Origin: Gammaproteobacteria bacterium
GTDB taxonomy: Bacteria; Pseudomonadota; Gammaproteobacteria; Steroidobacterales; Steroidobacteraceae
Reading direction: 5' to 3'
Length of the DNA: 64,000 nt
NCBI GenBank assembly: GCA_016874295.1
Contig: VGUH01000012.1
Span: forward strand, 1 to 64,000
Part shown: positions 65 through 14,843 of the stretch, one piece after another
Position numbering within the stretch: position 1 is the stretch's first letter
How the letters are laid out: the number at the start of each line of letters is the position of its first letter
The notes under the pieces: model-generated
The model's input: only the letters and a program-made list of their open reading frames with translations
Databases searched by the model: none
What the model was told of the DNA's origin: nothing
Position numbers and translations under genes: made by a program

Positions 65-67
65 GAC

Positions 68-89
68 CTCTCCCGCGATGCCGGGAGAG
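68..89 (-). promoter_or_regulatory. Inverted repeat overlapping the orfA ribosome binding site
   Basis: CTCTCCCG (68-75) and CGGGAGAG (82-89) form an 8-bp stem with a 6-nt loop. In the orfA transcript the 3' arm contains the GGGAGAG ribosome binding site. Folding would hide it, a known way for insertion sequences to limit translation of read-through mRNA. The function is inferred from position. Confidence 0.4.
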
Positions 90-93
90 TCTA

Positions 94-207
94 TTATTCA
101 CTGTGTCCGAGGCGGGGGAGCTTACGCGCCCAGGTGAGCGCGAACAGCGTCCAGAGCGCGATCAGGGCGAGCACGATGCCGGCGAAAATCCAGAGCTTTC
201 TCAGCAC
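94..207 (-). CDS. Putative 37-residue single-span membrane protein
   Basis: A short reading frame starts at GTG (205-207), preceded by GGGAGCAG at suitable spacing, and ends in TAA at 94-96. The product is LRKLW, then one hydrophobic segment of about 22 residues (IFAGIVLALIALWTLFAL), then a basic tail TWARKLPRLGHSE. This layout fits a small inner-membrane protein. No family is recognised. It lies between the IS fragment and the divergent agmatinase-family gene, so it could be a chance ORF or a remnant left beside the IS insertion. Confidence 0.4.
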   Translation of the reverse strand: MLRKLWIFAGIVLALIALWTLFALTWARKLPRLGHSE

Positions 208-311
208 GGCCTGCTCCCGGGAGGATGGCGGAATTATGCCTTTCCGGACGCGCGGTAGGATAATGACCCGGGGTCATCGACCAGTCGGGCGGCAGAGGGA
301 GCGGCAATCCA

Positions 312-1271: not shown

Positions 1272-1299
1272 CTTCAGCGCGGCGCATCCCGCGGTAACT

Positions 1300-1370
1300 T
1301 ACGGTGCCGGGTCGCACTTATCGCACTTATTGCAAGGCAATAAGTGCGATAAGTGCGACCCGGCACCGTA
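1300..1370. repeat. RAYT-associated palindrome, copy 1
   Basis: A perfect inverted repeat with 34-nt arms around a 3-nt centre (AAG at 1334-1336). The outer part carries GGTGCCGGGTCGCACTTAT and contains a 9-nt direct duplication (CGCACTTAT twice). The outer 31 bp of each arm equal the two sequences that bracket the transposase at 10570-11457. It sits in the 127-bp gap between the agmatinase-family gene and the permease. As RNA it would form a very stable hairpin. Confidence 0.95.
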
Positions 1371-1398
1371 CACGCGTCCGCTTCGGTAAGCTGGCGCG

Positions 1399-2808
1399 AT
1401 GTCTGAGCTGCGCCGCGACCTGACCCTCACCCACGGCATTGCCATCGTGGTCGGCATCACGATCGGCACCGGCGTATTCCTGAAGTCCGCGCCGATGGCG
1501 CAGGCGGTCGGATCGCCGCTGCTCGTCATGGCCGCCTGGGCGGTCGCCGGGCTGGTCGCCGTACTCGGCGCGCTCTGCTTCGCGGAACTCGGCACGCTGA
1601 TTCCCCGCGCCGGCGGCGAGTACCAGTACGTGCGCAAGGCTTTCGGCGACCTGCCGGGCTTCGTCTACGTGTGCATGAGCATCCTGATCGGCGCGGCGAG
1701 CATTGCCTCGTACTCGGCGGCGTTCTCGATCTTCCTGTCCGGCGCAGTCGCGCTGCCGGGCCCCTGGATCGAGCGGCCGTATACCCTCTTCGGACAGGAC
1801 CTCAACTGGCAGTTCGGCCTGCGGCAGCTGCTCGGCATCGGCGTGGTCGCGCTCTTCACCGGCGTCAACCTCGCGGGCGTCGCCTTCGGCGGCCGGGTGC
1901 AGACTGTGCTGACCTCGCTCAAGGTGCTAGCGGTCGCGGGCGTGATCATCGGCGTGTTCCTGTTCTCGCCGCAGGCGGCCGAGGCCGCCGCGAGCCTCGC
2001 GCCGGGCGGGGAGGCGGCGTCCGCGCTCACCGCGAGCGGCTTCGGTTTCGCGATGCTCTCGGCGATGTGGGCCTACAGCGGCTGGCAGTACCTGCCGATG
2101 ACCGCGGCCGAGGTGCGCGATCCAGATCGGAACGTGCCGCGCGCGGTAATCGGCGGGGGCCTCCTCGTCGTCGTGCTGTACCTGCTGGTGAACGCGGCGT
2201 ATTTCACGGCGCTGCCATTCGAGGCGGTGGTCACCTCGAACTCGACCGCTTACCCGGGGGCACCCGCGGTCGGCGCGCGCGCGGCGGAGACCTTCCTCGG
2301 CCCGCAGGCGATCTCGCTGGCAGCCGTGATATTCCTGATCTCCGCGGTCGGGGCGCTGAACGGCGTGATGCTGACGCGCGCGCGCGTGCCGTACGCCGCC
2401 GCCCGCGACGGGCTGTTCTTCAGGAGCTTTGCCAGGCTCAACCCCGGTGCGAGCGTGCCGGCGAACTCGGTGATCCTGCACGGCGTGCTCGCGGCGCTGT
2501 TCGCGGTCTCGGGCACCTTCGACCAGCTCACGAATCTCGCGACGCTGATCTTCGTGCTGTTCTGGGGGCTCTCGGGTCTCGCGCTCATGGTGCTGCGCCG
2601 CAAGATGGCGGACTCACCAAGGCCGTATCGCGTGTCGCTGTACCCGCTGGTCCCAATCGCCTTCGTGCTGATCATGGCAGGGGTCCTCGTGAGCACGATC
2701 GTCGAGAGCCCGGCGGAGGCGGGGGCGACGCTGGTGCTGCTCGGCCTGTCGCTGCCGCTGTACCCCTATTTCCGGCGGCGGTCGTCGGCGGTATCCGAGG
2801 GGCGATGA
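1399..2808 (+). CDS. APC-superfamily amino acid permease
   Basis: A 469-residue polytopic inner-membrane protein with about 12 hydrophobic segments. The first helix carries the APC signature GIAIVVGITIGTGVFL, the unwound substrate-binding TM1 motif of amino acid/polyamine/organocation transporters. The C terminus is short and basic (FRRRSSAVSEGR). It resembles LAT- and PotE-like members; the substrate cannot be read from sequence. The start ATG lies 28 nt after palindrome copy 1. The last base of its TGA stop is the first base of palindrome copy 2, so both ends of the gene touch repeats. A polyamine-related link with the upstream agmatinase-family gene is only a guess. Confidence 0.85.
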   Translation: MSELRRDLTLTHGIAIVVGITIGTGVFLKSAPMAQAVGSPLLVMAAWAVAGLVAVLGALCFAELGTLIPRAGGEYQYVRKAFGDLPGFVYVCMSILIGAASIASYSAAFSIFLSGAVALPGPWIERPYTLFGQDLNWQFGLRQLLGIGVVALFTGVNLAGVAFGGRVQTVLTSLKVLAVAGVIIGVFLFSPQAAEAAASLAPGGEAASALTASGFGFAMLSAMWAYSGWQYLPMTAAEVRDPDRNVPRAVIGGGLLVVVLYLLVNAAYFTALPFEAVVTSNSTAYPGAPAVGARAAETFLGPQAISLAAVIFLISAVGALNGVMLTRARVPYAAARDGLFFRSFARLNPGASVPANSVILHGVLAALFAVSGTFDQLTNLATLIFVLFWGLSGLALMVLRRKMADSPRPYRVSLYPLVPIAFVLIMAGVLVSTIVESPAEAGATLVLLGLSLPLYPYFRRRSSAVSEGR

Positions 2809-2876
2809 CGGTGCCGGGTCGCACTTATCGCACTTATTGCCACGCAATAAGTACGATAAGTGCGACCCGGCACCGT
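2808..2876. repeat. RAYT-associated palindrome, copy 2
   Basis: Inverted repeat of 33-nt arms around CAC, with one mismatch (AATAAGTACG in the right arm where copy 1 has AATAAGTGCG). Its first base completes the permease stop codon TGA. Its last base is the first base of a TTG that can start the MNIO gene. It therefore fills the entire gap between two genes. The same single-base variant occurs in copy 3. Confidence 0.95.
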
Positions 2877-3706
2877 TGGGGTTGCCGGATCTCGGGCTGG
2901 GCGTGGGGTTGCGCACGCAGCATTTCCGGCACATCACGACCAAATGGCCGGCGATGGACTGGTTCGAGATCCTGTCGGAGAACTTCATCGACACGGGCGG
3001 CCGGCCGATGTACTTCCTCGACCAGGTCGCCGAGCGCTATCCCATCGTGATGCACGGCGTCTCGCTCTCGGTCGGCAGCACGGATCCGATCGACTTCGGT
3101 TTCCTCGACAAGCTGAAAGCGCTCGCGAAACGGGTCAGGGCGAAGTGGCTCGGCGACCACGTCTGCTGGACGGGCGTCGCGGGCCTGAACGGCCACGACC
3201 TCTATCCCTTGCCCTACACGGAAGAGAGCCTGCGGCACATGGTGTCGCGGGTCCGGACCATCCAGGATTACCTCGAGCGGCCGCTGGTGCTCGAAAACCC
3301 GTCCACCTACCTGACGTTCGGCGTGTCTTCGATGCCCGAGGAAGAATTCATCGCCCGGCTCGCCGAGGAGGCGGACTGCGCGCTGCTGCTCGACGTCAAC
3401 AACGTTTATGTGACCTGCCGGAACCATGACCTCGACCCGGTGGCATACCTGGCGGCGATCCCGGCCGACCGCGTGGTGCAGATCCACCTGGCGGGGCATA
3501 CGGACAACGGCACGCACTGCATCGACACCCACGACGGGCGAGTGGTGGACGCCGTCTGGGAGTTGTACGCACGCTTCACGGCGCGTGTCGGCGCGCGCGC
3601 GACACTCCTCGAATGGGATGCCGACATCCCGAAGTTTTCCGTTCTGCAGCAAGAGGTTAGGAAGGCAGCACGGTTTAGGAACGGACTCCGGAAGGCGGCG
3701 GCTTGA
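2876..3706 (+). CDS. MNIO-family (DUF692) multinuclear iron oxidase-like protein, BufB-type
   Basis: This protein of about 276 residues has the DUF692/MNIO fold, a TIM-barrel binding two or three irons. Members modify cysteine-containing ribosomal peptides: MbnB in methanobactin synthesis, BufB in bufferin synthesis. Expected family landmarks are present in order: LGVGLRTQHF, MHGVSLSVG, WLGDHVCW, LVLENPST, LLLDVNNVYV, VQIHLAGHTD, IDTHDGRV and LLEWD, supplying the His, Asp and Glu ligands. The family's conserved N terminus begins right after the palindrome, so start choice is odd: TTG at 2876 or 2882, or a TTG at 2837 inside the palindrome. It overlaps the next gene by 4 nt (TTGA). No cysteine-rich precursor peptide is visible beside it. 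Confidence 0.85.
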   Translation: MGLPDLGLGVGLRTQHFRHITTKWPAMDWFEILSENFIDTGGRPMYFLDQVAERYPIVMHGVSLSVGSTDPIDFGFLDKLKALAKRVRAKWLGDHVCWTGVAGLNGHDLYPLPYTEESLRHMVSRVRTIQDYLERPLVLENPSTYLTFGVSSMPEEEFIARLAEEADCALLLDVNNVYVTCRNHDLDPVAYLAAIPADRVVQIHLAGHTDNGTHCIDTHDGRVVDAVWELYARFTARVGARATLLEWDADIPKFSVLQQEVRKAARFRNGLRKAAA

Positions 3707-4536
3707 AGCCTGTGGCGACGCCCAGCCTGGGCACCCTCGAAGCCTGGATGCAGGCAGTCGTGATGCACCCTGAAGGGGCCGAGGCAGGCCTGCGCTCGCA
3801 GCCGGCGCGCAGGTTCATCGCCCCGGCGGCACGTGACCCGTCGGCCGTGGTCCTGCCGTCGAAGCAACTGAATTCTCTCGAGCGCCTCGAGATCTACGCG
3901 CACATGTATTACGCGCGGCTGGTCGAGGTGATGGAAGGGGAATACCCGACCGTGCGGCAGGTGCTCGGGCCGTCGGCCTTCAGCGCGGCCTGCCGGGGCT
4001 ACATCGCGAGGCACCCGTCGCGCTCCCGCTTGCTGAACGGGCTGAGCGCGAGCTTTCCGGACTTCCTGGCCAGGACCCTGCCGCGCACTCACCGGCACCG
4101 GCTCGCGGTGGACATCGCCCGCATCGAGCGCGCGATGGAGGACGTGTTCGACGCGCCGGCGTCAACGCCGATGACCGCGGCAGAGTTCGCGGCGGTCGCT
4201 GACCGGACGCGGCTGTGGACCAACCCGGCGCTGGTGCTGCTGAAGCTGCGCTACCCCGCGAACACGTTCATGAACGCGCTCCGCCGCGGCGGGCGGCCAC
4301 GCATCCCGCGCCCGCGTGCGACCCGGGTGATCGTCTTCCGCCGCGGCTTCCAGGTGCTGCGCCGCGACCAGGAGCCGGAGCAGTTCCGGCTGCTGCAGGC
4401 GCTGGTGGCAGGCCAGCCGCTCGCGGCTGCGGTCCGCGCGAGCATCGGCCGCCGCGCCGGCAGTGCCGAGCGCGTCGCGCAACGCCTGCGCGGCTGGTTC
4501 GCCGAGTGGGCCGGCGCCCATCTCTTCGTGCGTTGA
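3703..4536 (+). CDS. DUF2063 domain protein, putative MNIO partner (BufC-type)
   Basis: A 277-residue protein beginning at TTG 3703, which overlaps the TGA of the MNIO gene and implies translational coupling. The N-terminal half (LEAWMQAVV, NSLERLEIYAHMYYARLVEVMEGEYPTVRQVLG) matches the DUF2063 domain found in partner proteins such as BufC/MbnC-like proteins, which bind the precursor leader and present it to the MNIO enzyme. The C-terminal part is arginine-rich and less conserved. The tight pairing with the DUF692 gene is the usual arrangement. What peptide the pair would modify is unknown here. The stop codon begins a second short repeat element. Confidence 0.8.
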   Translation: MKPVATPSLGTLEAWMQAVVMHPEGAEAGLRSQPARRFIAPAARDPSAVVLPSKQLNSLERLEIYAHMYYARLVEVMEGEYPTVRQVLGPSAFSAACRGYIARHPSRSRLLNGLSASFPDFLARTLPRTHRHRLAVDIARIERAMEDVFDAPASTPMTAAEFAAVADRTRLWTNPALVLLKLRYPANTFMNALRRGGRPRIPRPRATRVIVFRRGFQVLRRDQEPEQFRLLQALVAGQPLAAAVRASIGRRAGSAERVAQRLRGWFAEWAGAHLFVR

Positions 4537-4579
4537 AGGGGACGCGCCCGTTCGCGAACATGAAGGGGCGCGCCCCTGC
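4534..4579. repeat. Second REP-like repeat family, copy A
   Basis: TGAAGGGGACGCGCCC, then TTCGCGAACA, then TGAAGGGGCGCGCCCC form a GC-rich unit with internal inverted repeats. A related unit occurs at 7910-7949 and a short version at 14183-14201. It starts at the stop codon of the DUF2063 gene. It is unrelated in sequence to the RAYT-associated palindromes. Confidence 0.65.
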
Positions 4580-4590
4580 GGTGGTCTACA

Positions 4591-4607
4591 CTAACGTCTG
4601 GCGTTAG
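4591..4607 (+). promoter_or_regulatory. Inverted repeat in the leader of the 4625 gene, possible operator
   Basis: CTAACG (4591-4596) and CGTTAG (4602-4607) flank TCTGG, directly after TACACT, a plausible -10 box. It lies 18 nt before the next start codon. This could be an operator or a small RNA hairpin. No regulator is identified. Confidence 0.3.
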
Positions 4608-4624
4608 CTACCGAGGGGATCACT

Positions 4625-4984
4625 ATGAACATCCGCAGCCTGGCCAAGGGACTCACGTATTGCGGTGAAGCGAAGGGCAAGCGGCAGACGTATTACGTCT
4701 TCGAAAGCGCCGCCGGCTTCGTCGTCATGTCGGCCTCGCGCACCAAGCGCGCGAGCGGCTACTTCAACCTCGTGCGCCGCGACGCGGTGAGCCGCATCCG
4801 CAAGAGTTACGCAGGCAGGCAGGACGTCACGGCGAAGCAACTCGCGGTACGCTCGCGCGGCGCGGGCGTCCGTGACGCCCTGCATGCGCTGAACGTCCTT
4901 TACGTCCTGGTCGCGACCGGTGCCGCGAAGCGCGACGACCGCTACCAGGACACGCGCCTGCACTTCAATATCGCGCCGCGCTGA
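4625..4984 (+). CDS. Conserved-looking hypothetical protein, 119 residues
   Basis: ATG at 4625 follows GAGGGGATC, a good ribosome binding site. The product is basic and soluble, beginning MNIRSLAKGLTYCGEAKGKR, with one cysteine and many Lys/Arg residues (SRTKRASGYF, SRIRKSYAG). There is no signal peptide or membrane segment. I do not recognise the family. The middle part (TYYVFESAAGFVVMSAS, then YFNLV) could be a small beta-rich nucleic-acid-binding fold, but that is only an impression. It follows the MNIO pair but has its own promoter-like leader, and its single cysteine makes it an unlikely bufferin-type precursor. Confidence 0.65.
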   Translation: MNIRSLAKGLTYCGEAKGKRQTYYVFESAAGFVVMSASRTKRASGYFNLVRRDAVSRIRKSYAGRQDVTAKQLAVRSRGAGVRDALHALNVLYVLVATGAAKRDDRYQDTRLHFNIAPR

Positions 4985-5048
4985 GCGGAGGGCGTCCGAG
5001 ACCACCCGCTCCGCTTGCGGGCAGGCCATACAAACCCGAGGGGCGACA

Positions 5049-6843
5049 ATGACCGAGGACCAGCACGGCGCGACCGGATACACGCGAAGGGATTTCCTGC
5101 AGGCCGCAGGCGCAGGCGTCATGGCGATGGGACTGGACGCCGGAAAACCGGTGGCCGCGGCCGCGACGCCGGCCGGGCCGACGGGCGTGACCGGGCGCCG
5201 CGCCGGCCGGCCCGTACAACATCATCTTCATCCTCACCGACCAGGAGCGCTTCTTCCGCCCCGGCGAACTGCCGGCGGGATTCGAGCTGCCGGCTCACGA
5301 GCGACTCAGACGCCAGGGCACGAGCTTCGTGAACCATCGCATCAATTCCTGCGTCTGCACGCCCTCGCGCTCGGTCATCTACACCGGCCGGCACATCCAG
5401 CAGACCGGCATGTTCGACAATACGAACTTCCCGTGGATCACGAGCATGTCCACCGAGCTGTCGACGCTCGGCGACATGCTGCGCGCGGCGGGGTATTACA
5501 CCGCCTACAAGGGCAAGTGGCACCTGACCAAGGAATTCGAGACCGTCAACAAGCTGGGCAGCCCGACCAGGATCTTCACCGAGGAAATGGAGGCCTACGG
5601 CTTCTCGGACCATTTCGGCATCGACGACATCATCGCGCATACGCAGGGCGGCTACCTGCACGATGGTGTCATCTCGGCGATGGCCGGAAGCTGGCTGCGC
5701 GGCAAGGGGCGCGAGCTCGCCGGGCAGGGCAAGCCCTGGTTCCTCGCCGTCAACCTTGTCAACCCGCACGACGTGATGTTCTACGACACCGACGCCCCGG
5801 GTGCGCCAGTGCAGTCCGAGCGCGGCATCACGCACGTCGCCCGCGACCCCGTGGACCCGCTGTATGCGACGCAGTGGGAGTTCGGCCTGCCGCGCAGCCA
5901 CGGCCAGCCGCTGGACGCGGCGGGCCGGCCGCCGGCGCATCGCGACTTCCTGCGCTCGCACGACGCGCTGGTAGGCAACATCCCGAACGAGGCGGCGCGC
6001 TGGCAGCGCCAGCACAACTACTACCTCAATTGCCTGCGCGACGTGGATCGCAACATTGTGCTCGGCGAACTCGACGCCTCCGGCCTCGCGGGCCGCACGA
6101 TCGTCGTGCTGACCGCCGACCATGGCGACATGGACGGCGCCCACCAGCTGCACGCCAAGGAGGCGGTTGCCTATCGCGAGCAGAACAACGTGCCGCTCAT
6201 CATCTCGCATCCCGCGCATTCCGGCGGCCAGCAGTGCCGCGCGATCAGCTCGCACCTCGATCTCGCGCCGACGCTTGTCTCGTTCACCGGCGTCGAGCCC
6301 GGCAAACGCGCAACGATCGTGAAGGATCTGCCGGGCAAGGATCTGTCGGGCCTGCTGGCGGCACCCGGCGAGGCCGGCACGAATGCCGTCCATGAGGGGC
6401 TGCTCTTCAACTACAACATGTTCGCCTACCTCGATGGCGACTTCCTCAACAAGGCCGTGGACTTCATGCACCAGGGCGGCAACCCGAAGGAACTGAAGAA
6501 CGCGGGCATCGTGCCGGACATGATGAAGCGCGGCGCGGTCCGCTCGGTCTACGACGGCCGCCATGTTTTCGCGCGCTACTTCTCGCCGAAGCAGCACAAT
6601 CTGCCGACCACGCTGGAAGCCCTGTATCAGCTGAACGACACCGAGCTCTACGATACGGAGGCGGATCCGGACGAGATGCGCAACCTGGCCGCCGCTCCGG
6701 GCGAGAATGCCGAACTCTTGCTGGCCATGAATGCCAAGCTGAATCGCCTGATCGAGACAGAGGTCGGCGAGGATCGCGGCCAGATGCTGCCGGGCGGTGC
6801 GGACGCGGGCTGGGAGGTCAACGCGGAGACGATGGCACCCTGA
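5049..6843 (+). pseudogene. Tat-exported sulfatase (alkaline-phosphatase superfamily), frameshifted near its N terminus
   Basis: ATG 5049 follows GAGGGGCGACA and encodes a Tat signal (YTRRDFLQAAGAGVMAMG). The sulfatase body lies in another frame: PYNIIFILTDQERFF (from about 5213), INSCVCTPSRSVIYTGRH with the C-T-P-S-R formylglycine site, YTAYKGKWHL, TADHGDMDGAHQ and so on to TGA 6843. The signal frame must shift by one base between about 5190 and 5215, in a run of GCC/GGC repeats, to give one continuous 590-odd-residue enzyme. The catalytic Cys and metal-site motifs look intact. So this is either a recent inactivation or a sequencing/assembly error in GC-rich DNA. Family members cleave sulfate esters in the periplasm; the substrate is unknown. 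Confidence 0.8.
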
Positions 6844-6882
6844 AGGCCTCGATCTGCCGAGTCCCCACTGCGGCCGAAAAGG

Positions 6883-6910
6883 AAAAGGCCCGCCTCTCGG
6901 CGGGCCTTTT
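6883..6910. terminator. Bidirectional Rho-independent terminator
   Basis: AAAAGGCCCGCC (6883-6894), loop TCTC, GGCGGGCCTTTT (6899-6910) make a 12-bp stem that is A-rich on one side and T-rich on the other. It lies between the convergent sulfatase gene and the small membrane-protein gene at 6937-7245 and can serve both. Confidence 0.9.
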
Positions 6911-6936
6911 CACGGACCGCGTCCTGCGGGCCGAAA

Positions 6937-7245
6937 TCAGGGCTTGTAACGCTTCCAGATATTGCACGAAATGATACAGAGCGCAGCACCGGCCGCGAAG
7001 GTGCCGACCGCGCTGAAGATGCTCGTCAAGATTTGACCGACGCCCGGGATGTTCGTCAGTACCCCGGAAAGCGTGGCCAGTACGACTGCCGAAACCAGCA
7101 CGCGGACGTGATCCTCTGCGGCGATGGCGTAGCCACCAGCTAGGCCCAGCAGTACCAGCAGGAGGCCCGCGTACGGGACCTCGGTGAAGGCGCCGACTAC
7201 CGCGATGAGAATCGCGACCCAGCCTACGATCTTGAATGGATTCAC
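6937..7245 (-). CDS. Small hydrophobic membrane protein, 102 residues
   Basis: The product is almost wholly hydrophobic with about three membrane spans (IVGWVAILIAVVGAFTEV; YAGLLLVLLGLAGGYAIAA; and the VLVSAVVLATLSGVL to FAAGAALCIISC region) and a basic end WKRYKP. ATG at 7245 is preceded by GAGGGGGAT, a good ribosome binding site. No family is recognised with confidence. It is monocistronic, ending at the strong shared terminator. The AT-rich stretch upstream is a likely promoter region. Confidence 0.7.
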   Translation of the reverse strand: MNPFKIVGWVAILIAVVGAFTEVPYAGLLLVLLGLAGGYAIAAEDHVRVLVSAVVLATLSGVLTNIPGVGQILTSIFSAVGTFAAGAALCIISCNIWKRYKP

Positions 7246-7322
7246 TGTGCATCCCCCTCAGTCAGTTGTTTATGAACGCGGCCCTGTTAGCAGGTACCGC
7301 TGCGTGCATCGTACTCGCGGTC

Positions 7323-7366
7323 GGGTATTCATGCGAGCTTATTGAAATATAAGGGTATAACAACCC
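7323..7366. promoter_or_regulatory. AT-rich intergenic segment between divergent genes
   Basis: The otherwise GC-rich sequence here contains TTATTGAAATATAAGGGTAT and similar AT runs. It lies between the start of the 6937-7245 gene (minus) and the 7433 gene (plus). It probably holds one or both promoters, but no confident -35/-10 pair was picked out. Confidence 0.35.
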
Positions 7367-7432
7367 AGAAGACCGCCCGGAAACAGCAAGAAGCGGGTTG
7401 CGGCGGGGGGCTTGGGTACCGATGCTGCGGGC

Positions 7433-7900
7433 ATGAGCTACCAGGTCCGCGGACTCGAACCCGCGTTGTTCGAGCAATTTTTCGACCTCGATGATGCCGC
7501 CCTCGCCGGACGTGGCATGCGCCGGGTGCGTGCCGACCAGCCGGTCGGTTACCCCTGCCGCATCAGCCTGGAGGACGCCTCGGTGGGTGAGGAATTGCTG
7601 CTTCTGCCCTTCGCCCACCAGGATGCCGCGACGCCGTTCCGGGCGTCCGGCCCGATCTTCGTGCGTCGCGGGCAGCCGGCCGCGGCGCGCGTGGTCAACG
7701 AGTTGCCCGTCTGCCTGACCTTGCGGCCCCTGTCCGTCCGGGCCTATGACCGCGCCGACGAGATGGTGGACGCCGAGGTCATCGACGGCCGCGAGGCCAC
7801 CCCGCTCATCGAGCGCTACCTGGCGCGCGCCGACGTCGCCTACCTGCACGTGCATTTCGCGCGCCGCGGCTGTTTCGCCTGCCGCATCGACCGCGCCTGA
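7433..7900 (+). CDS. DUF1203 family protein
   Basis: A 155-residue cytosolic protein. It opens YQVRGLEPALFEQFFDLDDAAL, then has CRISLEDASVGEELLLLPF, GPIFVR and a C-terminal CFACRIDRA. These are the hallmarks of the DUF1203 family, whose biochemical role is not established. Three cysteines, including C-F-A-C near the end, may bind metal or be structural. The ATG at 7433 was chosen over an upstream TTG at 7412 because the family begins at about this point. It appears monocistronic, with a REP-like element immediately downstream. Confidence 0.8.
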   Translation: MSYQVRGLEPALFEQFFDLDDAALAGRGMRRVRADQPVGYPCRISLEDASVGEELLLLPFAHQDAATPFRASGPIFVRRGQPAAARVVNELPVCLTLRPLSVRAYDRADEMVDAEVIDGREATPLIERYLARADVAYLHVHFARRGCFACRIDRA

Positions 7901-7909
7901 CCGCAGCGG

Positions 7910-7949
7910 ACGCACCCCTTCGCGAGCAATTGAAGGGCGCGCCCCCTGT
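7910..7949. repeat. Second REP-like repeat family, copy B
   Basis: ACGCACCCC, then TTCGCGAGCAAT, then TGAAGGGCGCGCCCCC aligns with copy A at 4540-4579 with a few changes. It is placed between a stop codon and the next gene's start, as is copy A. Confidence 0.6.
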
Positions 7950-7972
7950 TTCACACCTAGAATGGCGCGGTC

Positions 7973-9448
7973 ATGTCGCAAATCGACCGCCGCCGGTTCA
8001 TTGCCGGCTCCGCCTCGCTCGTCGCCGTGCTGGGAACCCTGCACGCACGCCGCGCAGCGGCAGCGACGCGTGAATCGCGATTCGTGCCGAGCCCCTATGG
8101 CCCGCTGCGCCCGGTCAAGGACCTCGAAACCGGTTTGCCGCTGATCTACCTGCCAGACGGCTTCGAGTATCGGACCTACTCCTGGACCGGCGACGCCATG
8201 TCGGACGGTTCGCCGACGCCGAGCGCCCACGACGGCATGGGCGTCGTCGCCTCGCGCAGGGTCGACGGGGAGACGGAGACCACGCTGATACGCAATCACG
8301 AGCGCGGGCTCGGGAGCCCGATTCTGGCGCCGGCGCGTTACGACACTGCCGGGGCCGACCCGGCCTTCGCGCCGGCCGGCGGCACGACGACGCTCACCTT
8401 CCGCGGCCGCCGTTGGGTGAGCGCGCGACCGTCGCTCGGCGGCACGATCTACAACTGCGCCGGCGGCACGACGCCCTGGGGCAGCTGGCTGTCCTGCGAA
8501 GAGACCGTCATCGATCTCACGCCGCGCGGCGGCCGCAAGCACGGCTACGTCTTTGAAGTGCCTGCCGATCCTGCGGCGACGACCGGCCGGCCGATCGTGG
8601 CGATGGGCCGCATGCTGCACGAAGCCGTGGCGATCGACCCGGCGACGAGCATCGCCTACCTGACGGAGGACGAGGCCTACAACTCCGGTTTCTATCGGTA
8701 TGTCCCGAAGGACGCGAGCGGGCGCGCGGGCAGCTACGAGGCCGGCGGCCGCCTGCAGGCCGCGCGCGTCGCGGGCCGGGCGCGCGCCGACCTGCGCGCA
8801 CCGGCGGTCGGCGACCTGCATCGCATCGAGTGGGTCGACATCGAGGCGCCCGACGCCGATCCCGGCAAGCCGCCGGCGGAGATCACGACCGAGGCCGGCC
8901 GCGCGAGCGGCCCGTTCCTGCAGGCCTGGGCCCAGGGCGGGCTGGTGCTGAGCCGCGGCGAGGGCATCTGTTACCACGGCGGGCGGCTTTACATGGTTGA
9001 CACCGAGGCGGGCCGCGACGCGACGGGCCTGCCTGGGCGCGGCGAGGGCGCGATCTGGGAATACGACCCGCAGGCGGAGACGCTGAAGGCGATCTTCGTC
9101 GCAGGCAGCCAGCGAGTCGGCGACAACATCGACAACATCACCGCGAGCCCGCGCGGGGGCCTGCTGCTGTGCGAGAACGGCGAGGCGATCGTGGACGAGT
9201 ACGGGCAGGGTACGCGCCTGATCGGCATCACGGGGGATGGCGACTCCTACGCGTTCGCCAAGAACAACGTCGACCTCACGCTCGAAGACATGGTTGCGAC
9301 GGACAAGCGGATCGAGCCTGACTGGTTCCGCGCGGTCGAGTGGACCGGAGCGTGCTTCGATCCGACGGGCGAGGTGCTGTTCGTCAACATCCAGGTTCCC
9401 GGCATCACGTTCGCGATCTGGGGGCCGTGGGAGTGCGGCAACCTCTGA
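7973..9448 (+). CDS. PhoX-like (DUF839) Tat-exported phosphatase
   Basis: A 491-residue protein with a Tat signal (DRRRFIAGSASLVAVLG) and signal cleavage probably after AAA near residue 31. The mature part has PhoX/DUF839 features: LPDGFEYRTYSW, AHDGMGVV, LIRNHE, WLSCEET, LTEDEAYNSGFYRY, GEGAIWEYDP, DNIDNITASPRGGLLLCENG and the C-terminal FVNIQVPGITFAIWGPW. PhoX enzymes are calcium/iron-dependent periplasmic alkaline phosphatases; many DUF839 relatives are unproven. It is probably induced on phosphate limitation, but I saw no convincing Pho box. A palindrome follows about 40 nt after its stop. Confidence 0.85.
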   Translation: MSQIDRRRFIAGSASLVAVLGTLHARRAAAATRESRFVPSPYGPLRPVKDLETGLPLIYLPDGFEYRTYSWTGDAMSDGSPTPSAHDGMGVVASRRVDGETETTLIRNHERGLGSPILAPARYDTAGADPAFAPAGGTTTLTFRGRRWVSARPSLGGTIYNCAGGTTPWGSWLSCEETVIDLTPRGGRKHGYVFEVPADPAATTGRPIVAMGRMLHEAVAIDPATSIAYLTEDEAYNSGFYRYVPKDASGRAGSYEAGGRLQAARVAGRARADLRAPAVGDLHRIEWVDIEAPDADPGKPPAEITTEAGRASGPFLQAWAQGGLVLSRGEGICYHGGRLYMVDTEAGRDATGLPGRGEGAIWEYDPQAETLKAIFVAGSQRVGDNIDNITASPRGGLLLCENGEAIVDEYGQGTRLIGITGDGDSYAFAKNNVDLTLEDMVATDKRIEPDWFRAVEWTGACFDPTGEVLFVNIQVPGITFAIWGPWECGNL

Positions 9449-9486
9449 TCGTTTACGGCGTTTACGGTGCCCGTTTACCCGTTTAC

Positions 9487-9559
9487 GGTGCCGGGTCGCA
9501 CTTATCGCACTTATTCGGGGAGTCTCCCCGAATAAGTACGATAAGTGCGACCCGGCACC
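9487..9559. repeat. RAYT-associated palindrome, copy 3
   Basis: GGTGCCGGGTCGCACTTAT at 9487 mirrors the complement ending at 9559. The inner stem differs from copies 1 and 2: TTATTCGGGGAG faces CTCCCCGAATAA around one base. The left flank 9451-9486 holds four GTTTAC(GG) repeats that look like partial, stuttered copies of the palindrome edge. The right arm has the same A variant as copy 2. Confidence 0.9.
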
Positions 9560-9784
9560 CGATTACGGCAGCGCCTGCGGCGCGAGTCTTGGACCAGCGT
9601 GGCGTCGGCGGCCGCCGTCGGCGCGGCGGCGATCGCTGTCGTATGGAGCCACGGGCCGGCGGTCGCGGGCAAGGTCGCGGAACTTCTCGCGATGCTCGCG
9701 GAGCCGAACCTGCTGAGCGGCGTCGCCATCGCCGTCCTGGCGGCGAGTTTCTGGCCGGTCCTGCAGAGGTACCTGCCGCGCTAG
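9545..9784 (+). CDS. Putative small membrane protein whose start lies in a palindrome
   Basis: A reading frame opens at GTG 9545 inside palindrome copy 3 and ends with TAG at 9782. The first ~17 residues are arginine-rich (MRPGTRLRQRLRRES) and partly repeat-encoded. The rest has two hydrophobic segments (VASAAAVGAAAIAVVW and LLSGVAIAVLAASFWPVL) and a C-terminal QRYLPR. A GTG at 9599 is an alternative start. No family is recognised; it may be a chance ORF or a gene whose 5' end was replaced by the repeat. Confidence 0.35.
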   Translation: MRPGTRLRQRLRRESWTSVASAAAVGAAAIAVVWSHGPAVAGKVAELLAMLAEPNLLSGVAIAVLAASFWPVLQRYLPR

Positions 9785-9793
9785 AATCGCGGC

Positions 9794-9862
9794 ATGAAGA
9801 ATCCCGCGTTCGCGCAGCCGGACCCGTGCCACGTGCTCAGGTTCGCACACCAGGACCGCTGA
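9794..9862 (+). CDS. Putative 22-residue leader-like ORF
   Basis: ATG 9794 opens a 22-codon frame, MKNPAFAQPDPCHVLRFAHQ plus two residues, ending TGA at 9860-9862, four bases before the GTG of the esterase gene. No strong ribosome binding site is seen. It may be a translationally coupled leader, a remnant or chance. Confidence 0.2.
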   Translation: MKNPAFAQPDPCHVLRFAHQDR

Positions 9863-9866
9863 TCCC

Positions 9867-10544
9867 GTGACCTATCGCATCCAGGAATTTGCGGACGCCG
9901 TGATCCTGGCGCCCGCGGCGCCGGTCTCGGCGAGCGTGATCTGGCTGCACGGTCTCGGCGCCGATGGCCACGACTTCGTGCCGATCGTGCCGGAGCTGAA
10001 GCTGCCGCCGTCACCGGGCGTGCGCTTCGTGTTCCCGCACGCGGCGATCCGCCCGGTGACGCTCAACATGGGCATGCGCATGCGCGCCTGGTACGACATC
10101 AAGACGCTGACCGCAGAAGGCCGCACGGACGAGGCAGGGCTGCGCGAGTCGATCGCGCGGGTCGGCGCGCTCATCGCCGCCGAGCGCACGTTCGGCATCG
10201 CCTCCGAGCGCATCGTGATCGCGGGCTTCTCGCAGGGCGGCGCGACCGCGCTGCACGCCGCGCTGCGCCATCCCGAACCGCTCGCCGGCGTGCTCGCGTT
10301 GTCCTGCTACCTGCCGCTGCAGGCGGCGCTCGCCGCCGAGCTGGCGGACGCGAACCAGGCGATGCCGATCCTGATGTGCCACGGGCAGCAGGATCCCGTG
10401 CTGCCGATCGCGCTCGGGCGCGCGGCACGGGACTGGCTGCGCGCGGCGGGCTACCGCGTGGAGTGGAAGGAGTACCCGATGCAGCACCAGGTGTGCCTGC
10501 CGGAGATCCAGGACATCGCCGCCTGGCTCCGCACGCGGTTTTGA
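9867..10544 (+). CDS. Carboxylesterase / lysophospholipase-like alpha/beta hydrolase
   Basis: A 225-residue protein of the phospholipase/carboxylesterase family (Abhydrolase_2; Pseudomonas EstB, E. coli YpfH and eukaryotic acyl-protein thioesterases). The catalytic triad is visible: Ser122 in GFSQGG, Asp176 in GQQDPVLP and His207 in YPMQHQVC. The oxyanion motif WLHGLGADGHDF is at 26-37. There is no signal peptide, so it is cytosolic. It hydrolyses short acyl esters. It starts with GTG 9867. The last base of its stop codon is the first base of the left 31-bp terminal repeat of the transposase element. Confidence 0.9.
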   Translation: MTYRIQEFADAVILAPAAPVSASVIWLHGLGADGHDFVPIVPELKLPPSPGVRFVFPHAAIRPVTLNMGMRMRAWYDIKTLTAEGRTDEAGLRESIARVGALIAAERTFGIASERIVIAGFSQGGATALHAALRHPEPLAGVLALSCYLPLQAALAAELADANQAMPILMCHGQQDPVLPIALGRAARDWLRAAGYRVEWKEYPMQHQVCLPEIQDIAAWLRTRF

Positions 10545-10574
10545 CGGTGCCGGGTCGCACTTATCGCACTTATT
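10544..10574 (+). repeat. Left terminal repeat of the RAYT element
   Basis: ACGGTGCCGGGTCGCAC followed by TTATCGCACTTATT. The tnpA stop codon (complement at 10570-10572) lies inside it. It contains the short inverted repeat GTGC/GCAC around CGGGTC. Confidence 0.9.
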
Positions 10575-11457
10575 TGCCCCTCCTGTCGGCGCAGCGATGC
10601 AGATGGCCTCGAATCGCGCTCTCAGTTCGGCTGCATTGACGGGCGATTGAACTGACGGTCGCGACCCCGCGCGCCAGCGCTTCCCGGTACAGCCAGGCGC
10701 GCGCGTCCGAGAGCGCACGCGACCGACTGACCGAAACGATTTGATCGGCAGGCACTTCGAACTTCCTCGCGCACTCGACCAGCAGGTGGGCGAAGCTGCC
10801 GGACTTGCGATCACCGGAAGTGGACAGCCCAAGCCGGGCCAGGAAGCCATCGTTCCCCAGCACTTGCGGATGATCGGGGTGCGGCACCAGCGAGCCTTCC
10901 CCCCACCTGGTTCCGTCCACCTCACCCATCCATGCCGCGTACCGCGTTCGCGCCTGGCGGACGTCCTCCGAAAAGAGGCGCAATGCGACGCTCGTGCACA
11001 CCCAGCTCGTATTTCGGTCGCCGAGATAGTCGTTGTGGCTGGACCAGGGGTAGTCGCGGGCATCCCTGACAAGTCCTGCACGCACCGGATTCAGGTGAAT
11101 GTACTTGACCAGGGTCAGGAGGTAGCTGTCGGCATCGACCAGTACCGCATGGTGGCGGCGTTCGAACAGGTGACCGGTCGTGGCAAGGCTTTGCTGGAAG
11201 CGTCGCGCGTAGCGACTCGCGACACGGAGTATCAATTTGCCGAGCGGAACTTCCGATACCTGTACGAGTGCATGGATGTGATTGGTCATCCAGCAGTAAG
11301 CATGGATGCGTGCGCCAAGCTCGCGCGCCGCGTCGGCAACGATCGCCTCGAGGAGGGCCCGGTCCGCCTCGTCACGGAAGATGGCCTGGCGGTGGTTGCC
11401 ACGCAGGGTCACGTGGTGAAACCCGTTCGGGACATGGAGTCGGAGTCGACGAGCCAC
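10570..11457 (-). CDS. REP-associated tyrosine transposase (RAYT, TnpA_REP)
   Basis: A 295-residue single-strand DNA transposase of the IS200/IS605-like Y1 HUH family, RAYT branch. The opening MARRLRLHVPNGFHHVTLRG and the HUH pair H60-I-H62 in CWMTNHIHAL are typical. The nucleophile is Tyr119 in VKYIHLNPVRAGLV, the signature RAYT motif. The C-terminal ~110 residues (SRSRALSDARAWLYREAL, TVSSIARQCSRTESAI) resemble the helix-turn-helix of DnaA domain IV seen in some RAYTs. GTG 11457 is preceded by AGGGAAG. The gene looks intact. RAYTs are thought to cut and move REP sequences and are often kept as single-copy genes. Confidence 0.93.
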   Translation of the reverse strand: MARRLRLHVPNGFHHVTLRGNHRQAIFRDEADRALLEAIVADAARELGARIHAYCWMTNHIHALVQVSEVPLGKLILRVASRYARRFQQSLATTGHLFERRHHAVLVDADSYLLTLVKYIHLNPVRAGLVRDARDYPWSSHNDYLGDRNTSWVCTSVALRLFSEDVRQARTRYAAWMGEVDGTRWGEGSLVPHPDHPQVLGNDGFLARLGLSTSGDRKSGSFAHLLVECARKFEVPADQIVSVSRSRALSDARAWLYREALARGVATVSSIARQCSRTESAIRGHLHRCADRRGK

Positions 11458-11578
11458 GGACTTCCCTGACGCGCGGTCAATTGCCCCGACAGCCTATGTG
11501 GGTCGGCGAGCCCTGCGCCATGCTCAATCGGGGCCGAGATGTGTGAAAATGCACGAGGCCGACCCAGCCGCCTGTCGC

Positions 11579-11609
11579 AATAAGTGCGATAAGTGCGACC
11601 CGGCACCGT
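11579..11609 (-). repeat. Right terminal repeat of the RAYT element
   Basis: AATAAGTGCGATAAGTGCG followed by ACCCGGCACCGT: the exact reverse complement of 10544-10574. It ends one base before the AGGAGG that serves lemA. Confidence 0.9.
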
Positions 11610-11620
11610 TAGGAGGCAAC

Positions 11621-12205
11621 ATGGGCTGGATACTTCTGCTGATCATCGTGCTGCTCGCGCTGTTCGCGATCGGCATCTACAACGGCCTCGTCACGGCGCG
11701 GAACGCCTACAAGAACGCGTTCGCGCAGATCGACGTGCAGCTCACGCGCCGGCACGACCTGATCCCGAACCTGGTCGAGACCGCGAAGGGCTATCTCGCG
11801 CACGAGCGCCAGACGCTCGAGGCGGTGATCACCGCACGCAATGCGGCGGTGAGCGGCCTGAAGGCCGCCGCCGCGAATCCCGGCGACCCGGCTGCGGTGC
11901 TGCAACTGGCCGGCGCCGAGAACGCGCTCACCGGCGCGCTCGGGCGCCTGTTCGCGCTCGCGGAGGCTTACCCGGACCTGAAGGCGAACACCACCATGAT
12001 GCAGCTCTCCGAGGAGCTGACCACCACCGAAAACAAGGTCGCGTTCGCGCGCCAGGCGTACAACGACTCGGTGATGGGCTACAACAACAGGCGCGAGATG
12101 TTTCCTTCGAGCATCGTCGCCAACATGTTCGCGTTCCAGCCCGCGCAGCTGCTCGAGATCGAGTCCGCGGCGAAGCGCGAAGTGCCGCAGGTGAAGTTCA
12201 CCTGA
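11621..12205 (+). CDS. LemA family protein
   Basis: A 194-residue protein with one N-terminal membrane anchor (WILLLIIVLLALFAIGIY) and a long helical LemA domain. Family motifs are YNGLVTARNAYKNAFAQIDVQL, RRHDLIPNLVETAKGY, ELTTTENKVAFARQAYND and the C-terminal FPSSIVANMFAFQ. The domain is exposed outside the membrane and its role is not settled. The ATG has a strong AGGAGG ribosome binding site just beyond the transposon end. It is followed 29 nt later by the M48 protease gene, a frequent pairing that suggests joint action in envelope quality control. Confidence 0.93.
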   Translation: MGWILLLIIVLLALFAIGIYNGLVTARNAYKNAFAQIDVQLTRRHDLIPNLVETAKGYLAHERQTLEAVITARNAAVSGLKAAAANPGDPAAVLQLAGAENALTGALGRLFALAEAYPDLKANTTMMQLSEELTTTENKVAFARQAYNDSVMGYNNRREMFPSSIVANMFAFQPAQLLEIESAAKREVPQVKFT

Positions 12206-12234
12206 CGCGCGGGCCCGGCACGGGGTCCTGAGCG

Positions 12235-14181
12235 ATGGATTTCTTCGCGCGGCAGGCCGCAACCCGGCGGCAGTCGCGCTGGATGGTGTTCCTGTTCGTC
12301 CTCGCGGTGCTCGCGATCGTGATCGTGATCGACTTGGTCGTCGTCGTGACGGTCGCGATCCTCTCGGTGCAGGACGACGGCGGCCTACTCGCCACGCCGG
12401 ACATGTCCATCTGGCGCTACCCGACGATCATCCTGTTCAGCAGCCTGGTCGTGCTCGGCACGATCGGCATCTCGAGCGTCGCGCGCACGGTCACGCTCGC
12501 CGCGGGCGGCAGCAAGGTCGCCGAGCAGCTCGGTGGCACGCGCGTCGGCGCCGACACCGCCGACCCGCTGAAGCGCAGGCTGCGCAACGTAGTCGAGGAG
12601 ATCGCGATCGCCTCGGGCGTGCCGGTGCCGCAGGTGTACGTGCTGGAGCGCGAGGCGGGGATCAACGCGTTCGCCGCCGGCTACAGTCCGGCGAACGCGG
12701 CGATCGCGGTCACGCGCGGCGCGCTCGTCAACCTGAACCGCGACGAGTTGCAAGGTGTCGTCGCGCACGAGTTCAGCCACGTGCTGAACGGCGACATGCG
12801 CCTCAGCACCCGCCTGATCGGCCTGCTGTTCGGACTCACCGTGATCGCCATGATCGCGCGCACGATCCTGCGTTTCGTGCCGCGCAGCGGCGGTGACAGC
12901 GGCCGGAAAGGCGGTCCCGCGATCGCGGTGATCATCGTCGCGGCGCTCATCGTGCTCGCGCTCGGGTGGATCGGCCTGTTTTTCGGCCGCCTGATCCAGG
13001 CCGCGGTCTCGCGCAACCGCGAGTCGCTCGCCGACGCCTCGGCCGTGCAGTTCACGCGCGACCCGACCGGCCTCAGGAACGCGCTGGTCAAGATCGGCGC
13101 GCTGGGCGCCGGCTCGCGCTTCTCGGACGCGGACGCGGAGGAGGTCGCGCACATGCTGTTCGCGCCCGGGATCCAGCGCCTGTTCGCGACCCATCCGCCG
13201 CTCGAGCAGCGCATCCGCGAGATCGATCCGGGCTTCCAGCCGTCGGAGTTCGAGACGGTCCGGCGCCGCCTGGCCGAGGCGCGCGGCGCGGAACAGGAGG
13301 AGGCGGCAGCACGCACGGCGGCCGGCGCGGCGCGCGCGGGCGGGCTGCTGCAGGGCGCCGTGGTGCTCGCGCCGGCGGCGGTTGCCGGTCTCGTCGCCAA
13401 CCCCGGCACCGAACACGTGCTGCAGGCGCACGAGGTACTGGCGTCGCTGCCGGAGTCCTTCCGGCGCGCAGCGCGGCAGCCCGAACAGGCGGCAGCGCTG
13501 TTCCTCGCGCTCGGCATCGACGTCGTCCCGGAGGCGCGCGAGCGGCAGCTTGCATTCATCCGCGAGCAGTACGGTGCGGAGTTCCACGGCGCGGTGCTGG
13601 CAATGCTCGGCGAAGTGGACGCGCTCACGTCCGTGCAGCGCATGCCGGCGCTCCTGCAGGTGTTCGCGGCGCTGAACCAGCTCGGGCGCGCCGAGCGCGT
13701 CGAATTGCTCAAGTGCCTCAACGGCCTGCTGGTGCGGGAGAGCCGCCCATCGGTATTCGGCTACGCGCTGCGCAAGCTCGCTCAGGTCCAGTTGCAGGAC
13801 AACCTCGACCCGCGCCGCAGGGCCGTCGGGCACCTCGGCGTCCACGGCGCGCGCGAGGAGCTGCAGGTGCTGCTCTCGATTCTCGCGGCCCAGGGCAACG
13901 AGGACGAGGTGGCCGCGCGGGCCGCCTACGACGCGGGCATCGAGCGGCTGCTGCCGGGCATCCGCCCGCCGCTGCTGCGCGTGCCGCATTGGCCGCCGAA
14001 GCTCGACCAGGCGCTCACGCGCCTCGACCGCCTGCAGCCGGCCGCGAAGGAACACCTGGTCCAGGCGCTGGTCACGGCCATCTCGCACGACGGGCGCATG
14101 ACCGTGCCGGAGTCCGAGCTCCTGCGCGCGATCTGCGCGGTCCTGCATTGCCCGCTGCCGCCGCTCTACGCCGCCGCCTGA
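12235..14181 (+). CDS. M48 family membrane zinc metalloprotease with extended C terminus
   Basis: A 648-residue HtpX-like protease. It has two N-terminal membrane spans (about 16-43 and 63-85), the zinc site HEFSH at 178-182 with NGDMRLS after it, and two more spans (about 195-215 and 228-255). The third zinc ligand is probably in ESLADASAVQFTRDP. The C-terminal ~290 residues go beyond the usual HtpX length. They end in AISHDGRMTVPESELLRAICAVL, which resembles a TerB-like helical domain. It is probably co-transcribed with lemA. The expected role is degradation of damaged membrane proteins; the C-terminal part may sense or regulate. Confidence 0.88.
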   Translation: MDFFARQAATRRQSRWMVFLFVLAVLAIVIVIDLVVVVTVAILSVQDDGGLLATPDMSIWRYPTIILFSSLVVLGTIGISSVARTVTLAAGGSKVAEQLGGTRVGADTADPLKRRLRNVVEEIAIASGVPVPQVYVLEREAGINAFAAGYSPANAAIAVTRGALVNLNRDELQGVVAHEFSHVLNGDMRLSTRLIGLLFGLTVIAMIARTILRFVPRSGGDSGRKGGPAIAVIIVAALIVLALGWIGLFFGRLIQAAVSRNRESLADASAVQFTRDPTGLRNALVKIGALGAGSRFSDADAEEVAHMLFAPGIQRLFATHPPLEQRIREIDPGFQPSEFETVRRRLAEARGAEQEEAAARTAAGAARAGGLLQGAVVLAPAAVAGLVANPGTEHVLQAHEVLASLPESFRRAARQPEQAAALFLALGIDVVPEARERQLAFIREQYGAEFHGAVLAMLGEVDALTSVQRMPALLQVFAALNQLGRAERVELLKCLNGLLVRESRPSVFGYALRKLAQVQLQDNLDPRRRAVGHLGVHGAREELQVLLSILAAQGNEDEVAARAAYDAGIERLLPGIRPPLLRVPHWPPKLDQALTRLDRLQPAAKEHLVQALVTAISHDGRMTVPESELLRAICAVLHCPLPPLYAAA

Positions 14182-14182
14182 C

Positions 14183-14201
14183 GAAGGGGCGCGTCCCCTT
14201 C
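14183..14201. repeat. Second REP-like repeat family, short copy C
   Basis: GAAGGGGCGCGTCCCCTTC is nearly self-complementary. It shares the AAGGGG-CGCG-CCCCTT core of copies A (4534) and B (7910) and again begins right after a stop codon. Confidence 0.5.
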
Positions 14202-14231
14202 AATGGCAGGCGCGCGGCTATACTCCCGCCC

Positions 14232-14843
14232 GTGCGCAGGCTCAACGAGTTCGTCTACCGGCTGCGCTGGGGAGCGTTCGAGGACCGGCGGCGCCGCGGT
14301 CTCATCCGTCTGCACGAGCTCCTCGCCGGCACGCCGTTCGCTGAAAGGTACTGGATGATCATGGGCCTGCTGCTCGGCTGCATGCGCGACGGCCGGCCGA
14401 TCCCCTGGGACCGCGACTCGGACTTCGGCTTCCTGAGCCGCGACCTGCCGCAGTTCCTCGATGCGATGCGCATGCTGCGCGGGAACGGCTACAACCTGCG
14501 CCCGCCGCAGGTCAACAACGACGGCCGCACGACGATGTGGACGCTGAAGTTCGAGGCGGTCAAGTACGACTTCTTCCTTTTCGAGGAGAACGGCGCGAAC
14601 ATCCGCTGGTACTACCACCAGCGCAAGCCGCCGCTCGAGCTGATCAACGAGCTGCCCGCGCACGGGCTCGCCGGATTCGAGCTGTACGGCAAGCGCTGGC
14701 AGGTGCCCGAAAACGCGGAGGATGTCCTGACGCGCATCTACGGCGACTGGCGCAGGCCCAACCCCGAGTACCTCTACTGGCGCGACTGCCGCGCGATCGT
14801 GGAGCGTTACCCCTGGACCGGGGAACGCAGGCCCCCTGAATGA
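14232..14843 (+). CDS. LicD/fukutin-like nucleotidyltransferase-fold protein
   Basis: A 203-residue protein with MGLLLGCMRDGRPIPWDRDSDFGF, which matches the LicD/fukutin signature (G-x-x-L-G-x-x-R-x-x-x-x-I-P-W-D-x-D-x-D). This is the metal-binding core of enzymes that move phosphocholine or other phosphodiester groups onto glycans. The remaining sequence is rich in Trp and Tyr. GTG 14232 is the start. It overlaps the next gene by 4 nt (ATGA), so the pair is coupled. Together with the glycosyltransferase it suggests modification of a surface polysaccharide. It lacks a membrane span. Confidence 0.7.
   Translation: MRRLNEFVYRLRWGAFEDRRRRGLIRLHELLAGTPFAERYWMIMGLLLGCMRDGRPIPWDRDSDFGFLSRDLPQFLDAMRMLRGNGYNLRPPQVNNDGRTTMWTLKFEAVKYDFFLFEENGANIRWYYHQRKPPLELINELPAHGLAGFELYGKRWQVPENAEDVLTRIYGDWRRPNPEYLYWRDCRAIVERYPWTGERRPPE

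Follow-up and report, generated by a model that had tools for sequence, protein, structure and literature searches.

Within a stretch of 64,000 nucleotides (the window; contig 12 of a genome of 2.37 Mb in 46 contigs, labelled G000) from a gammaproteobacterium of the Steroidobacteraceae, a single transposase gene, tnpA, lies between perfect inverted repeats, the arms of which also build gene-free palindromes throughout the genome. This is probably a hairpin system of the TIRtron type, in which the HUH domain of the transposase and a DnaA-like tail act on a hairpin-folded strand. One support of this reading is a covariation: the arms consist of a foot followed by short words that differ from element to element, and the divergence of these words tracks the DnaA-like tail more than the catalytic domain. 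The kind of system itself is known; the foot with element-specific tandem words and the covariation of words and tail are new.

The unit is 1,066 bp long, and its outer 31 bp, which bound one Y1 (HUH) transposase gene, are inverted repeats matching at 31 of 31 positions, as an earlier note on this DNA had stated. The two arms are spaced by 1,004 nt, and the predicted fold of a single strand of the 1.1-kb unit pairs them with each other. They start with ACGGTGCCGGGT and have neither GTAG nor GTGG at their foot, which agrees with the earlier note and sets them apart from the GT[AG]G-footed repetitive extragenic palindromic (REP) sequences of RAYTs. The stop codon of tnpA lies inside the left repeat. 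The parts of the unit are as follows.

10544 to 10574, forward strand: left terminal inverted repeat, with the foot GGTGCCGGGT at 10546-10555 and the word CGCACTTAT at 10556-10564 and 10565-10573
11579 to 11609, reverse strand: right terminal inverted repeat, the exact mirror, with the words at 11589-11597 and 11580-11588 and the foot at 11598-11607
10570 to 11457, reverse strand: tnpA, coding for a Y1/HUH transposase of 295 amino acids with NHIH and YIHLNP motifs
10573 to 10800, reverse strand: tnpA segment for residues 220-295, the predicted DNA-binding domain resembling DnaA domain IV

Within the order, 103 of 396 genomes, G000 among them, have TnpA homologs (E ≤1e-20); 80 homolog loci were examined (L066-L145), and 50 distinct homologs with at least 36% identity and 270 amino acids were selected. 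Of these 50 long homologs, 44 are flanked by inverted repeats whose foot is that of the window element or nearly so; four of the 44 repeats were recovered only on a loosened search, and the removal of three redundant ones left 41 elements. Foot-bearing repeats were not found in the other six, namely L077, L122 and L138 (none found), L125 (at a contig edge), and L078 and L082, which have repeats with another start. In the arms, the foot GGTGCCGG is followed by tandem words of 7-10 bp that differ among the elements: CGCACTTAT stands twice in the window arm, CGTAGATT/CGTAGGTT in the congener G003, CGCGGGTT twice in Povalibacter uvarum (L097, with the same protein as L069), and L111, L116 and L131 have two to four TTGGCTTAT-like words. 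Tandem words (at least 6 of 7 bases matching, period 7-10) are present in 28 of the 41 arms, versus 2.4 on average and 8 at most in 200 shuffled sets. The conservation of the foot is partly by construction, because foot columns served to place the arms (the first six for most, columns 7 and 8 too for four late arms); G stands in column 7 of 39 arms and in column 8 of all 41. The words were also tried as DnaA boxes, TTATNCACA, and rejected, the arms scoring 233 versus 229.9 for shuffled arms, with 91 of 300 shuffled sets as good; the L117 arm alone matches the box at 8 of 9 positions, N counted.

When the 41 elements are compared pairwise, word distance correlates with the distance of the tail (residues 221-290) at 0.531, with that of the HUH domain at 0.361 and with that of the middle region at 0.313. 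In partial Mantel tests the tail given the HUH domain retains 0.435 (p 0.0005, from 2000 permutations that remove phylogeny only partly from the word/tail correlation), the HUH domain given the tail 0.135 (p 0.006), and the middle region given the tail 0.03. This pattern suggests that the DnaA-like tail may read the short doubled words in the repeats.

The protein has the core features of RAYT / TnpA_REP transposases, with a match to NCBIfam NF047646 (REP_Tyr_transpos; 80.6 bits, just above the cut-off of 80), a structural match to 4er8 and the NHIH and YIHLNP motifs, and it also matches Pfam Y1_Tnp (E 1.3e-12). In an AlphaFold2 model (8-row alignment with the tail in five rows; mean pLDDT 81), residues 1-190 match 4er8, which is TnpA_REP bound to a REP hairpin (Z 16.0), and residues 220-295 match DnaA domain IV (1j1v, Z 11.3, root-mean-square deviation 1.5 over 76 residues) and 8btg_C (Z 12.1), although for helical folds Z values under roughly 13 may be commonplace. 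Sequence agrees with the DnaA-like fold: along this tail, a profile of 42 sequences finds DnaA in PDB at E 4.2e-5, and Bac_DnaA_C appears in 7 of 10 TnpAs, each time under Pfam's cut-off. In the model, residues 220-295 thus resemble DnaA domain IV in their fold. The window tnpA is the sole Pfam Y1_Tnp match (E ≤0.001) in G000, in line with the single gene expected by the earlier note. An open reading frame for 168 amino acids with weak similarity to tnpA (L019 3146-3652; 30%, E 2.6e-4) lies about 1 kb from a palindrome and, having apparently lost the first His of the HUH motif, is a possible tnpA relic. There is one distant phage protein match with 25% identity, and on a contig of a metagenome-assembled genome labelled Planctomycetota (L104), which is possibly mis-binned, 43 residues are 100% identical to this TnpA.

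Gene-free palindromes with the arms of the unit are found at three places in the window, no strand being assigned to them.

1300 to 1370, no strand: gene-free palindrome with the loop GC-AAG-GC
2808 to 2876, no strand: gene-free palindrome with the loop GC-CAC-GC and a C-to-T change in one arm
9485/9487 to 9559, no strand: gene-free palindrome with a longer inner stem, CGGGGAG/CTCCCCG

The earlier note had seen the same 31 bp in all three, with differing inner stems. The latter is borne out and most arms are indeed exact, but single C-to-T changes are found in two right arms, the ones at 2846 and 9531, and in the third palindrome the match of the right arm covers 29, not 31 bp. As DNA, the three fold as single hairpins with z-scores of -12.9 to -16.3. 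In the whole G000 genome, the 29-bp arm core has 37 forward and 38 reverse matches with at most 3 mismatches, versus none in either direction for the reversed letters of the core, and the arm family is therefore not due to chance. Besides the tnpA unit, these 75 matches make up 35 gene-free palindromes with both arms; three odd arms are left, of which one belongs to a palindrome whose left arm is shortened (L013) and two lie at L029 (2001-2682), where a short asymmetric palindrome with a right arm lacking one word is followed about 600 bp further, after other sequence, by a lone right arm. The genome-wide search thus supports both the view that the outer arm is the conserved part of the palindromes and the proposed palindrome family linked to one RAYT-type gene.

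Within the hairpins of G000 the two arms agree, with 9 mismatches in 36 versus 37 after re-pairing, and 16 of the 20 arm variants common to both arms sit on the third base of either word (positions 13 and 22). The palindromes of G000 extend outward into the flanks by a mean of 2.8 bp versus 1.0, the maximum over 2000 re-pairings being 2.1; no such extension was seen in G315, G019 and G003, and as it is confined to G000 among the four genomes compared, no general snap-back copying is claimed. Directly outside the foot, T[G/A]A[C/T] stands on the left in 15 and on the right in 13 of the 36 G000 units, and the base adjoining the hairpins is T in 77 of 86 cases in G315 and in 54 of 58 in G019. The flank consensus thus differs between G000 and the latter two genomes, for which a different target or foot preference is proposed.

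Some further observations concern single palindromes. Those of L011, L017 and L036, at separate loci, resemble one another in their central 25 bp, from which it follows that a palindrome can spread as a whole. The palindrome loop of L028 (1901-2035) holds a second inverted-repeat family, GAAGGGGACGCGCCCCTTC, similar sequence lies next to the palindrome of L042, and in G004 (L091) another Y1 gene is bracketed by a repeat, AAGGGGACGC..., that resembles this family. At positions 9460-9486 of the window and in the flanks of L011 and L040 there are short tandem repeats of part of the foot with a few flanking bases, which gives the impression of repeated copying of the border. A plasmid search gave no match for the palindrome.

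Hairpins of this type are not confined to G000. The earlier note had held that the presence of the arm in genomes without tnpA would speak against the link of the two, and the outcome is mixed: the G000 arm occurs in 0 of 97 other genomes, but sister families occur in four genomes without a Y1_Tnp match. In these four, the hairpin pattern has 31 (G019), 46 (G315), 23 (G377) and 11 (G001) matches, with control matches at 0-1 (over all genomes scanned, the background of the pattern is up to 5 in one genome), and one example each was inspected in G377 and G001. Twelve genomes in which the repeat is known also have worded hairpins among those listed (G002, G123 and G197, with no listed worded hairpin, are excluded), and in 8 of the 12 at least one listed hairpin bears words of the own repeat or related ones (G000, G003, G049, G097, G158, G129, G133 and G172). 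G004 has hairpins with CGCAGGTT-like words, but the best TnpA match there has an internal stop codon and other repeats.

Some hairpin sites are shared between species, each with species-specific words. When 8 of the 9 G003 hairpins with own words were compared with the 35 of G000, two of the 8 were found at G000 hairpin sites, with both flanks matching and each with the words of its own species. For G315, where the count was 46 and the list had 44, 43 hairpins were examined (one place on the list looked unrelated), for G019, 29 of 31 places (two looked coding), and shared sites were accepted only if both flanks match, one-side matches being dropped. This holds for 16 sites, at which both arms of the G315 hairpin have G as base 19 in 16 of 16 cases, and both arms of the G019 hairpin have A there in 15 cases and T in one. 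At the 16 sites the similarity of the loops does not exceed that of re-paired loops (0.508 versus 0.467; 82 of 1000 as high). Since sites are common to the species yet arms and loops differ, either exchange in place or repeated insertion into the same spacers has to be assumed. Within the G315 hairpins, the arms have 3 mismatches in 43, versus 38.5 after re-pairing. A hidden transposase between neighbouring G315/G019 hairpins was considered as well and discarded, the first 1000 nt of five such intervals holding ordinary-looking genes, as judged by eye.

The position of the tnpA unit can be compared among congeners with the help of its neighbours.

9867 to 10544, forward strand: esterase-like gene (named from its sequence), left neighbour
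11621 to 12205, forward strand: lemA-like gene (named from its sequence), right neighbour

The TGA of the esterase-like gene (10542-10544) shares its last base with the first base of the 31-bp repeat, and 11 bp separate the right repeat from the start codon of the lemA-like gene. The order of esterase, lemA and M48 peptidase genes (likewise named from sequence) is kept in five same-genus genomes, of which G000 and G003 have a tnpA unit between esterase and lemA, and G004, G005 and G006 have 57-58 bp from the end of the esterase match to lemA and no unit. The empty orthologous sites expected by the earlier note are thus present in three congeners; G002 (esterase not found in the lemA locus) and G001 (best LemA match 36% identical) are uninformative at this spacer. 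By parsimony, insertion rather than loss would explain the spacers of G004-G006. The TnpA of G003 is 50% identical to that of the window, the words of its repeat are different, and these words or close variants are borne by 9 of 10 clear G003 hairpins, the tenth having CGCGGATT words. The borders of the G000 and G003 units are unlike, and the free tree brings G000 closer to another family's copies (97/77), but the data do not reject a clade of G000 and G003 (p-AU 0.22), and the tree is compatible with either one or two insertions behind the two units. As to the palindromes at 1300, 2808 and 9487, a search of the G003-G006 loci next to the permease or PhoX-like gene recovered none of the neighbour genes queried, except for a 42% match to a small open reading frame in G006; in G006, a lone arm of its own type lies just past the PhoX stop.

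The TIRtron-type system would work as follows. The transposase would act on a DNA strand folded as a long hairpin, with the pair of 29-31 bp arms as the stem and anything between them as the loop, be it three bases or the tnpA gene, and the content of the loop would be immaterial. The tail would dock on the tandem words, which are double-stranded within the stem, and would thereby bring the HUH domain to the foot, GGTGCC/GGCACC, for cutting and joining of the strand there; gene-free hairpins would be handled and mobilised in trans. As a 31-bp stem keeps the words double-stranded in single-stranded DNA, a DnaA-type reader of duplex DNA and an HUH-type strand-cutter make a sensible pair. Words and tail would drift together, with the content of the hairpins renewed by the transposase largely at existing sites, and it is proposed that species therefore differ in their words. 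Taken one step further, and only tentatively, hairpins might be fixed addresses, at the existing feet of which the tail-guided transposase swaps the loop, the arms or even a gene-bearing loop; by such swapping in place, the hairpin population and the transposase would change words together and sites would be inherited across species.

Several observations weigh against this account. Of the arms, 13 of 41 are below the threshold for tandem words, and the words resemble DnaA boxes no more than chance predicts. Despite their palindromes, 0 of the 4 genomes G019, G315, G377 and G001 (100%, 91%, 89% and 75% complete) have a Y1_Tnp match at E ≤0.1, with one weak TnpA match in G001 (E 1.3e-6, 27%), and the 77% complete G006 shows no TnpA match at E 0.001 in spite of three worded hairpins. 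In 4 of the 12 genomes with known repeats (G086, G187, G195 and G200), none of the hairpins listed bears the words of the own repeat. In G019, the two arms of a hairpin do not clearly agree better than re-paired arms (31 mismatches versus 36.1, minimum 29 of 2000), the G003 sample is small (8 mismatches versus 12.4 re-paired, minimum 8, n=8), and arm agreement within hairpins could reflect subfamilies.

With regard to the origin of the short palindromes, the earlier note had derived them from the full unit, which would make them internal-deletion derivatives like miniature inverted-repeat transposable elements (MITEs) that move as an ordinary insertion sequence does. Such an origin accords with the arms common to palindromes and unit, and the similar centres of L011, L017 and L036 indicate that a palindrome can spread as a unit, but tnpA is single-copy in G000, and 4 of the 35 loops share at least 9 nt with the unit interior versus a shuffled mean of 2.5 and maximum of 7, a comparison in which about half of the loops, having 8 nt or less (e.g. 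3-7 nt), are too short to tell. As the loops match the unit interior no better than shuffled sequence does, the derivation from the unit is unsupported and a MITE-like origin highly improbable. A host function of the hairpins, be it at mRNA 3' ends, in the nucleoid or in replication, with a merely historical link to the transposase, would account for the hairpins in the four genomes without a Y1_Tnp match and for the many sites common to G019 and G315. This is nevertheless unlikely, given that the listed hairpins bear the words of the own transposase repeat in G000, G003, G049, G097, G158 and G129, and that window positions 1-14500 gave no Rfam match.

As an alternative to overwriting at shared sites, the species may have inserted their own hairpins independently into the same few favoured spacers, and the loops, which at the 16 shared G315/G019 sites are just as different as re-paired ones, would fit this, as would the consensus in the bases adjoining the hairpins of G000 and G315. 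On the other hand, 16 of 29 G019 sites match a G315 site on both flanks, at 16 of 16 sites the alignment ends no more than 35 nt from the hairpin on one side or both, and three sites are near-identical in the bases at one border, so that independent insertion appears conceivable yet doubtful. Shared sites with species-specific content are a natural system for the concerted evolution of short bacterial repeats. Literature searches for 'repetitive extragenic palindromic' with 'concerted evolution' gave nothing on this topic. Gene conversion of REPs was reportedly raised long ago, judging by the title of a work of Higgins from 1988, and a 2017 paper by Bertels is said to deal with RAYT groups.

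The distinct branch that the earlier note had suspected exists, but it has already been described, as TIRYT/TIRtron elements (Di Nocera 2013, PMC3733652) and as subclass 2.1 of TnpA_Y1 (Quentin 2018, PMC6006769). According to the available parts of the former, RAYT-like genes lie between long inverted repeats, some of which belong to families with many members as dimers or clusters, and there is no obvious correlation of transposase genes with repeat families. The window element, a RAYT-like gene within long terminal inverted repeats (TIRs) and without GTAG foot, is of this kind. The shared motif GGGGWSAS of the TIRtrons, which is in some TIRs only and not strictly defining, is missing from the window arm, which has GGTGCCGGGT instead; among the more distant homologs, L085 and L101 are examples that do carry it, as GGGGACAG/GGGGTCAG. 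In the main text of PMC3733652, as far as available, 'direct repeat', 'iteron' and 'DnaA' do not occur, and 'tandem' is not about TIR words. Of 26 TIRYT/TIRtron examples, 20 are in subclass 2.1 according to Quentin 2018, the available text of which notes the DnaA-like tail, with similarity to Bac_DnaA_C in part of the members, reports no REP-like sequence nearby and doubts that the tail reads repeats. Judged by its features, the window TnpA belongs to this subclass, sharing the YIHLNP-type (Y-HLNP) motif and a long C-terminal tail with a DnaA-type helix-turn-helix; different from what is described there, the words in the repeats covary with the tail here.

With the REPIN/RAYT system (Bertels and Rainey 2011, PMC3116915, in its available parts) the palindromes share two inverted arms, the hairpin, a variable spacer and the link to a Y1 transposase, but here there is no GTAG-type foot, the gene lies between the same arms and there are tens of copies. 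IS200/IS605 elements have the HUH/Y1 catalytic domain in common with the window unit, and chemistry on single-stranded DNA is expected for both; unlike them, the unit is bounded by terminal inverted repeats, has a single gene copy and a DnaA-like tail. Literature on transposases with 'DnaA domain IV' was not found, and neither tandem words nor a link of words and tail are contained in the available text of Di Nocera 2013, Quentin 2018, Corneloup 2021, PMC3116915 and PMC8049555. The novelty is therefore a testable recognition code within a known kind of system: the role of the DnaA-like tail, left open by Quentin 2018 in the text available, is made directly testable by the modular repeat and its covariation with the tail.
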